NCBI GenBank assembly: GCA_945897785.1
Contig: CAMDGD010000004.1
Span: 1 to 64,000 of the forward strand
Length of the DNA stretch: 64,000 nt
DNA from: Paludibacter jiangxiensis
GTDB lineage: Bacteria > Bacteroidota > Bacteroidia > Bacteroidales > Paludibacteraceae
Reading direction: 5' to 3'
The translations under genes were made by a program, and so were the position numbers. Every line of letters begins with the position of its first letter. Within the stretch, counting starts at the first letter, position 1. The notes under the pieces are model-generated. The model saw only the letters and a list, made by a program, of their open reading frames with translations. It was not told where the DNA came from and did no database searches. Positions 11,568 to 13,949 of the stretch are shown here, piece by piece.

Positions 11568-12677
11568 ATGTCGCTTCGTTTTCAAATAGCCTTATCGCAG
11601 ATTAAAGGGATTGGTCCTGTTTTAGCAAAGAACCTTATTGCATACATAGGCAATGCTGAAGGGGTTTTCAGAGAATCGCAAGCCAATCTGGCAAAAATTC
11701 CGGATATAGGCATAGCTTTATCAAAACAGATTAAGCAACAGCAAACCGAAGCACTAAATAGAGCTGATAAAGAACTTTTCTTTATACACAAATACAATAT
11801 TAACACTGTTTTTTACACAGATAAAGACTATCCATACCGTCTAAAAGAATGTGCCGATTCTCCAATAATACTATTTACCAAAGGAAATATTTCTCTTAAC
11901 GGATCGCGAAATATTGCACTAGTAGGTACAAGAGACGCAACTGAATATGGCAAGGAATTGTGCTGCAATTTAATTAAAGATTTAGCCAAGTTTGTTCCGG
12001 ATGCAACTATTGTAAGTGGATTGGCTTATGGTATAGATATTTGTGCACATAAAGCCTCGGTTGAAGTAAATTTACCAACGATAGGGATTGTTGGGCATGG
12101 ACTTGATCGTTTATATCCTGCTCAACACAGACAAACGACGGTAAAAATGCTTGAAATGGGTGGCTTAGTATCGGAGTATCTATCGGAAACAATCCCCGAA
12201 AAACAAAACTTCGTACAACGAAACCGCTTAATTGCCGGTTTGTGTGATGCTATTATCGTTGTCGAATCTGCTGAGAAAGGCGGTTCGTTAATTACCGCTG
12301 ATATGGCTCAATCGTACAACCGAGATGTTTTTGCATTTCCGGGAAGAGTGGGCGACACGCAATCAGCCGGATGCAACAGATTAATTAGTAGTAATAAAGC
12401 CGGACTAATAACATCTGCATCCGATTTAATACAAGCTATGTGTTGGGAAATTAATCCGGAACAAAATACAGTAATTCAACCCAGCTTATTTATGGAGTTG
12501 ACAGAGATTCAACAAATTGTAGTGGGGATTTTGCGAAAAACAGAAACTTTAAGTGTAAATGAGTTGGCTATAGCATTACAAATGCCAGTCAGTAAAACTT
12601 CCTCTTTACTACTCGAAATGGAATTTAATGGTATAGTTAAATGCTTACCCGGAAATGTGTATAAACTAAGACCGTAA
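11568..12677 (+). CDS. dprA: DNA-processing protein DprA
   Basis: 369 residues. An N-terminal helical SAM/HhH-like region (ALSQIKGIGPVLAKNLIAYIG) precedes the Rossmann-fold DprA domain with IALVGTRDATEYG, IVSGLAYGIDICAHKAS, the RNRLIAGL stretch and VVESAEKGGSLITADMA. A C-terminal winged-helix domain (LSVNELAIALQMPVSKTSSLLLEMEFNGIVKCLPGNVYKL) completes the usual three-domain form. DprA loads RecA onto incoming single-stranded DNA in natural transformation. No other competence gene is nearby, and dprA is kept in most Bacteroidota regardless of known competence. Confidence 0.93.
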   Translation: MSLRFQIALSQIKGIGPVLAKNLIAYIGNAEGVFRESQANLAKIPDIGIALSKQIKQQQTEALNRADKELFFIHKYNINTVFYTDKDYPYRLKECADSPIILFTKGNISLNGSRNIALVGTRDATEYGKELCCNLIKDLAKFVPDATIVSGLAYGIDICAHKASVEVNLPTIGIVGHGLDRLYPAQHRQTTVKMLEMGGLVSEYLSETIPEKQNFVQRNRLIAGLCDAIIVVESAEKGGSLITADMAQSYNRDVFAFPGRVGDTQSAGCNRLISSNKAGLITSASDLIQAMCWEINPEQNTVIQPSLFMELTEIQQIVVGILRKTETLSVNELAIALQMPVSKTSSLLLEMEFNGIVKCLPGNVYKLRP

Positions 12678-12690
12678 GGGTTCTTTAGGT

Positions 12691-12762
12691 AAAAAAATAA
12701 AGCGGAATCACCGCGCTCGGCTATCCGCTTTATTAACCTTAAATCTAATACTATGAAAAACA
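12691..12762 (-). ncRNA. Small RNA gene with own promoter and terminator
   Basis: On the minus strand a -7 element TATCTTTG (12775-12768) is followed by about 72 nt ending in a strong terminator: a 10-bp stem AATAAAGCGGA/TCCGCTTTATT type with an inner CCG/CGG helix and seven T. The 5' part forms a second hairpin, ACTGTG-TTTTT-CATAGT (one G-U pair), then the unpaired stretch ATTAGATTTAAGGTTAAT. No open reading frame fits. From memory, the CATAGTATTAGATTTAAGG segment next to a variable terminator hairpin recurs in other Bacteroidota genomes and may correspond to a named RNA motif; this was not checked. The hairpin may also end dprA transcripts from the other side. Confidence 0.7.
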
Positions 12763-12767
12763 CAGTA

Positions 12768-12798
12768 CAAAGATAGTTGTTTATATGTTTTAAAACAT
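12768..12798 (-). promoter_or_regulatory. Promoter and palindrome of the small RNA
   Basis: TATCTTTG at 12768-12775 (minus strand) is a perfect -7 element. The perfect 14-bp palindrome ATGTTTTAAAACAT at 12785-12798 covers the -33 region, where a TTTG would be expected; it may be an operator. Confidence 0.55.
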
Positions 12799-12894: not shown

Positions 12895-13863
12895 TTAAAA
12901 TCCTATCGATTTTAAAAGTAATCCGGATTTCTCATCTAAACCACAAATCAAATTCATATTCTGAACAGCTTGACCTGAAGCTCCTTTTAATAAATTATCT
13001 ATAGCCGACGTCACCAATAATTTTGACCCATGTTTTTCAATATGCAACAATGCCTTATTAGTATTTATTACTTGTTTTAAATCGATGGCTGTATCGCTAA
13101 CAAAAGTAAAGGCAGCATCTGCATAAAAATCGGCATACAATTGCTTGGCTTCTTCTAAAGATAATGAGCAATCGGTATAAGCAGTTACAAATATTCCTCG
13201 GGAAAAATTCCCACGCATAGGAATAAAATTAATGGCTTGGTTAAATCCGGCTTGCAATTGTGTTATTGACTGACATATTTCTGCTAAATGCTGGTGTTCA
13301 AATGCCTTATAAACAGACACATTATTATTGCGCCAACTAAAATGCGAAGTCGATGTCGGTTTCTGTCCCGCTCCGGTAGATCCGGTAATAGCATGTATAT
13401 GCAATTCATTGGTAAGTAAATTGGCTTTAGCTAAAGGCAATACAGCCAATTGTATAGCCGTAGCAAAACATCCCGGATTAGCCACTCGTTTACTATTCAA
13501 TAACGCATCTCTGTTTAATTCCGGAAGTCCGTACAAAAACCCTTTATCATTGGGTTGTGGACGATAATCTGTAGATAAATCGACAATTTTTAAAGTTTCG
13601 GGTAGTTCGTGCGCTTCCATAAACTTCTTTGTATCGCCGTGTGCTGTACAAAAGAACAACAGCTCAACAGTATTCAATGGCAATGCTTCGGTAAATACCA
13701 AATCGATTTCACCAATTAATCCGCCATGTACATCACTCACTTTATTGCCGGCATTACTACCACTGTTAACAAAGCAAATTTCTACTTGAGGATGATTTAC
13801 CAAAAGGCGAATCAATTCCCCGGCAGTGTACCCCGCCCCTCCAATAATTCCTACTTTAATCAT
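12895..13863 (-). CDS. argC: N-acetyl-gamma-glutamyl-phosphate reductase
   Basis: 322 residues from the ATG giving MIKVGIIGGAGYTAGELIRLL; the ORF track adds four residues from an upstream TTG. The catalytic cysteine lies in NPGCFATAIQLAVLPL, and HAITGSTGAGQKP and the HFSWRNNNV segment follow the ArgC pattern. It carries out the third step of arginine synthesis. It is isolated from the other arg genes of the window (argR-GNAT-argG 6 kb away, argD 13 kb away) and no ARG box was recognised upstream. Confidence 0.92.
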   Translation of the reverse strand: MIKVGIIGGAGYTAGELIRLLVNHPQVEICFVNSGSNAGNKVSDVHGGLIGEIDLVFTEALPLNTVELLFFCTAHGDTKKFMEAHELPETLKIVDLSTDYRPQPNDKGFLYGLPELNRDALLNSKRVANPGCFATAIQLAVLPLAKANLLTNELHIHAITGSTGAGQKPTSTSHFSWRNNNVSVYKAFEHQHLAEICQSITQLQAGFNQAINFIPMRGNFSRGIFVTAYTDCSLSLEEAKQLYADFYADAAFTFVSDTAIDLKQVINTNKALLHIEKHGSKLLVTSAIDNLLKGASGQAVQNMNLICGLDEKSGLLLKSIGF

Positions 13864-13949
13864 AATTATAATCAATGAGCCAATAAGTTAATAAGCTAGT
13901 TTTTCAATTTATTTACATTGGAAAACACGCATATTAGTTCATTGGCATA

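Follow-up and report, generated by a model that had tools for sequence, protein, structure and literature searches.

A FopS-family small-RNA gene between argC and dprA of Paludibacter jiangxiensis: a palindrome in its promoter and gldL of type IX secretion as a possible target

The interval between dprA and argC in Paludibacter jiangxiensis carries, on the minus strand, a promoter element and a terminator with no evident protein gene between them, which raises the question of what RNA is encoded there and on which messengers it might act. An earlier note had described the segment as a stand-alone small RNA and as a member of a dispersed RNA family. The window, the whole stretch of 64,000 nucleotides that was analysed, belongs to the assembly of a Paludibacteraceae MAG (G000) that is 86% complete; genome-wide analyses covered 1.88 of its 1.91 Mb. 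The features of the locus are as follows.

11568..12677, plus strand: dprA, the convergent neighbour, ORF of 369 aa
12691..12763, minus strand: predicted fopS sRNA of about 73 nt, with +1 placed at 12763 by the family model and the 3' end in the U tract
12691..12697, minus strand: U7 tract, read from the sequence
12696..12734, minus strand: intrinsic terminator hairpin, fold of -19.6 kcal/mol, z -4.1
12733..12763, minus strand: conserved 5' segment GUGUUUUUCAUAGUAUUAGAUUUAAGGUUAA, which holds the R1/R1' pairing region known from B. thetaiotaomicron (PMC11697453)
12768..12775, minus strand: -7 promoter element TATCTTTG (consensus TAnnTTTG), read from the sequence
12785..12798, no strand: palindrome ATGTTTTAAAACAT at -35 to -22, a candidate operator overlapping -33
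12895..13875, minus strand: argC, the upstream co-directional neighbour, ORF of 326 aa

The covariance search proposed in the earlier note was run against Rfam and matched the FopS family (RF04319) at window positions 12763-12688 of the minus strand, with 66 bits against a gathering cut-off of 56. The alignment spans the full length of the model (1-71 of 71), and its E-value of 2e-7 over the whole window excludes a chance match. The minus-strand feature at 12763-12691 is a small-RNA gene of the already known FopS family. Both the stand-alone RNA, with its own promoter element and terminator, and the dispersed family of the earlier note were supported. With the published FopS RNAs it has in common the full-length match, the 5' R1/R1' segment, which equals the consensus except at position 12 (A/G) and is unpaired in the fold, the 3' terminator hairpin, the -7 element, a paralogue in the genome and an encoded RRM protein. 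It differs in its host (Paludibacteraceae rather than Bacteroidaceae), in copy number (two per genome against 12-15), in the sequence of the terminator stem, in the promoter palindrome, which the Bacteroides/Phocaeicola fopS copies examined lack, and in the genomic setting, as no SusC protein exceeded the cut-off in this assembly. Within the known sRNA family it is an ordinary case, found in a host family for which FopS had not been reported.

GibS (RF04182, PMC7366714) has the 5' R1 segment in common with the RNA beside dprA, but this identity was ruled out by a score of 43.2 bits against a gathering cut-off of 115; GibS is also 145 nt long rather than 73 nt, and its R2 part is absent here. 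The DonS-type antisense RNAs of PULs, according to PMC7366714, which cites them, are likewise small RNAs tied to PUL regulation, but they are encoded opposite susC genes and are set apart by this location from a fopS gene between argC and dprA. The second fopS copy of the genome (L002 1501-1568; G000:C43:4335-4402) scores 55.7 bits, 0.3 bits below the cut-off. It is more diverged, has the altered seed ATTAAATTTAAGGGTAAG, lacks the palindrome and lies behind an rlmI-like gene, a location that is conserved in several genera.

The role of the family is known from gut Bacteroides, where FopS pairs with the start regions of susC-like mRNAs and blocks their translation, as shown for FopS-10 of B. 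thetaiotaomicron (PMC11697453). FopS-01 to -14 of that species form a family of paralogous sRNAs with transcripts of about 65-70 nt that are induced by bile salts (PMC11697453). For the family, the statement of the earlier note that target and role are unknown is therefore outdated, as repression of susC-type mRNAs and binding by RbpB have been described (PMC11697453).

Because fopS lies directly behind the co-directional argC, and its 3' end (12691) comes 13 nt after the stop (12677) of the oppositely oriented dprA, the segment at 12763-12691 might be no more than the 3' end or the terminator of a transcript from either neighbour, or else a functionless copy in decay; a FopS derived from a 3'-UTR does exist in B. 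thetaiotaomicron (PMC11697453). Such an origin is most improbable, however, since the copy has a -7 element and a palindrome of its own, and on the strand of dprA the hairpin is not followed by a U tract. Syntenic copies in other genera have, like this one, an intact 5' segment despite turnover of the stem sequence. In 121 distinct copies, many or most of them retrieved by a pattern covering part of the conserved 5' segment, positions 1-31 show 90-100% identity per position, with the exception of position 12 (A/G). Terminator stem sequences vary widely among these copies, yet all 121 form a 3' hairpin with a folding energy of -6 kcal/mol or lower, in 112 together with a U tract. The orthologue in the same genus keeps the hairpin with A-U in place of one inner G-C pair of the stem (GCCG/CGGU to GCCA/UGGU), and the argC-linked copies L059 and L123 form the hairpin from another stem sequence. 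The statement in the earlier note that the same 5' segment stands beside different terminator hairpins was thus confirmed in the compared copies. The order argC>fopS<dprA recurs in the same-genus genome G002, and argC>fopS in two further genera (G018 and L059). By locus, argC precedes fopS in L097/L122, L123 and L059, and dprA adjoins fopS in L097/L122 and in L057, a Bacteroidaceae MAG. This recurring order suggests that fopS between argC and dprA is an old locus.

The sRNA gene itself extends over about 73 nt (12763-12691) instead of the 85 nt of the earlier note, which take in the promoter; the -7 element, the unpaired linker stretch and the terminator hairpin with U7 were all found as described. 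The 31-nt segment from 12763 reads GTGTTTTTCATAGTATTAGATTTAAGGTTAA, the stretch ATTAGATTTAAGGTTAAT is present at 12749-12732 of the minus strand, and the reverse complement of the 5' segment resembles a start region, TTAACCTTAAATCTAATACTATGAAAAACAC. Folded from the +1 given by the family model, the RNA reaches -20.0 kcal/mol (z -3.1; 1 of 200 shuffles was equally good) with pairing in the terminator alone. The earlier note had also placed a 5' hairpin with a U5 loop in the RNA, and the string TACUGUG-UUUUU-CAUAGUA is indeed present and folds to -26.1 kcal/mol when TACU is added upstream. TACU, however, sits between the -7 element and the +1 implied by the Rfam model, and from this +1 only three pairs of the 5' hairpin are left and none is predicted. 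The tetranucleotide before +1 also varies among the copies of the family search (CACT in 8, CATC in 7, TACT in 6, CAAT in 5, CACC in 5, and others). A conserved 5' RNA hairpin was rejected because it straddles this +1 and its TACU is variable in relatives; a transcription start four bases farther upstream would give the hairpin in the copy beside dprA. The absence of an ORF was right in substance, as only a mechanical GTG frame of 84 aa runs from +1 through the terminator into the dprA antisense, and it is not conserved because its terminator part differs in sequence among copies.

Upstream of the fopS copies compared, TAnnTTTG or a near variant is present. In a check for a sigma-ABfr promoter, the -7 element was there, but a clear -33 TTTG was absent and its position is occupied by the palindrome. 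Outside Bacteroides/Phocaeicola, many fopS copies have in their promoters, at about -38 to -22, a palindrome of the form ATGTTnTAnAACAT, which in most cases begins 34-38 bases before +1. With at most two mismatches it occurs in 24 of the 43 fopS promoters that the family search and its flanking loci provided, against a shuffled mean of 0.7 and maximum of 3; some of these loci had been retrieved with the palindrome pattern itself, which slightly favours the count. Among the promoters of the pattern set it was present in 3 of 84, whose sources are Paludibacteraceae and two further MAGs that are not Bacteroides. In the assembly, 1.88 Mb contain a single exact copy, the one at fopS beside dprA. 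When 41 genomes were searched for exact matches to the palindrome combined with the -7 element, 11 of the 15 matches were fopS promoters, against one match for the reversed pattern. The palindrome loci collected are window positions 12785-12798, L003-L032 and L111-L125. The four matches outside fopS lie near gapdh (L119), a formylglycine-enzyme-like gene (L113), the end of an acyl-CoA synthetase gene (L116) and a possible tRNA region (L111); as they have no gene in common, an autoregulated regulator gene beside the palindrome was rejected.

A regulator probably binds this palindrome. Because the palindrome overlaps the -33 position, its placement would fit a repressor better than an activator. 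In the Bacteroides/Phocaeicola fopS promoters (L034-L110), inspection by eye showed TTTG near -33 and, at around -60, an AAAACAT-like box, which possibly serves a different activator or is an UP element. The FopS paper leaves the activating regulator unnamed and contains neither the word palindrome nor inverted repeat (PMC11697453). The palindrome is apparently new relative to the published account. With regard to HcpR as its regulator, the available part of the preprint PMC13370916 gives no comparable motif.

The messengers on which the RNA might act were approached by duplex predictions with 1553 start regions. The best duplex, at -25.8 kcal/mol, is formed with gldL/porL of the type IX operon porP-gldK-gldL-gldM-gldN, in which nucleotides 7-34 of the RNA are predicted to pair with mRNA positions -24 to +5, 13 nt of this being perfectly complementary. 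The complement recurs in the gldL leaders of relatives (ATTAACCTTAAA in G006 and G008, AACCTTAAAT in G003). For 14 gldL leaders of the family the energies sum to -202.6, compared with -138.1 (sd 11.5) for shuffled FopS, and none of 500 shuffles was as low. Relative to random start regions of the same genomes, gldL gave p 0.0012 in 13 relatives and p 1.5e-5 in the six nearest, which were picked post hoc with the data already seen. The gldM leaders of these loci show nothing unusual (about -12 on average in the seven nearest), and in more distant Paludibacteraceae, as in another fopS-bearing family (G038, -9.7), gldL pairs weakly or not at all. In the genome as a whole, duplexes of -14 or lower were found for 224 start regions, compared with 145 mid-gene regions and 124 shuffled (maximum 214), a modest enrichment. 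Exact seed matches in start regions genome-wide were not enriched over shuffled seeds and were rejected as a target signal. Leader energies of orthologues in G000 and the same-genus genome G003 were uncorrelated (rho 0.03, 196 pairs), apart from a slight surplus between -12 and -14. We tentatively propose gldL as a predicted FopS target, one for which no earlier report was found, the pairing being partly kept in relatives.

FopS might instead have its usual targets here, the mRNAs of SusC/TonB receptors or of other envelope proteins, the gldL duplex being coincidental and susC merely missing from the assembly, a reading that we hold to be a real possibility, short of probable. SusC exceeded the cut-off in 38 of 41 relatives searched and is full-length in same-genus relatives, and receptor, OmpH-like and lipoprotein leaders are within the top 40 predictions. 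The assembly itself gave no SusC/RagA over the cut-off (best match 105 of 368 bits) and 13 weaker receptor matches; as it is 86% complete, the absence of SusC from the P. jiangxiensis genome is only suggestive. Against the usual targets speak the first rank of gldL among the 1553 leaders and the recurrence of the complement in relatives.

For the copy beside dprA we infer both expression and action. It would be transcribed on the minus strand from its own sigma-ABfr-type promoter and the transcript would stop at a terminator of its own; its unpaired 5' segment would then base-pair in trans with the start-codon regions of mRNAs and keep ribosomes from entering, as FopS-10 does in B. thetaiotaomicron, with gldL as the best predicted target in this organism. 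As a whole, this explanation is very probably correct.

RbpB of B. thetaiotaomicron binds FopS and antagonises its repression rather than helping it (PMC11697453). Since RbpB binds FopS there and the present genome also encodes an RRM protein, FopS could chiefly buffer an RbpB-type RNA-binding protein by sponging instead of pairing with mRNAs. The RRM_1 protein is the only one in the genome and has 93 aa. In 61 genomes, however, fopS and RRM_1 were found together in 25, fopS alone in 19, RRM_1 alone in 12 and neither in 5 (Fisher p 0.39), so fopS and RRM proteins of the RbpB type do not co-occur, which is apparently a new observation. Several of the genomes with fopS only are 99-100% complete, and sponging therefore cannot be the common function; as the chief role of FopS it is very unlikely. 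The lack of co-occurrence agrees with RbpB antagonising FopS and means that FopS can be retained without an RRM protein; its presence in such genomes makes an RbpB partnership unlikely as the general mode.

The published conservation of FopS lies within Bacteroidaceae and derives from BLAST with the best 250 targets (PMC11697453); the Paludibacteraceae host is outside this range. In the present survey fopS was found in 35 of 36 sampled Paludibacteraceae relatives (1-5 copies each) and in 67 of 295 Bacteroidales genomes (27 families, 1-14 copies per genome). Phylum-wide it was found in 4 of 297 Bacteroidota genomes, one of them G000 and one weak. The placement in other Bacteroidota by the earlier note thus holds for Bacteroidales and is too wide for the phylum. 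A recently described sRNA family of gut Bacteroides is now placed across at least 27 families of Bacteroidales, and three additions result: the order-wide spread without RRM dependence, the promoter palindrome, which offers a handle on the FopS regulator, and the candidate target in type IX secretion. The conserved gldL pairing, if true, would tie FopS to type IX secretion and could be tested in laboratory species. Going further, FopS may be a Bacteroidales-wide, RbpB-independent regulator that took on different targets and a different promoter control in different lineages, and which in part of the Paludibacteraceae controls type IX secretion via gldL and is itself under a dimeric regulator at the palindrome; this full scheme is possible but rather doubtful.

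Some fopS copies were met in unusual contexts. Four tandem copies lie within about 800 bp in L019 (G035:C4:192014-192809), and shorter arrays are present in G004, G021, G032 and G463. L072 (JAGOJE010000150.1), which is titled Rickettsiaceae, has fopS and is likely a mis-binned Bacteroidales contig. A phage copy of FopS is mentioned in PMC11697453, and 17 IMG/VR viral contigs (L306-L322) carry the exact FopS 5' segment.
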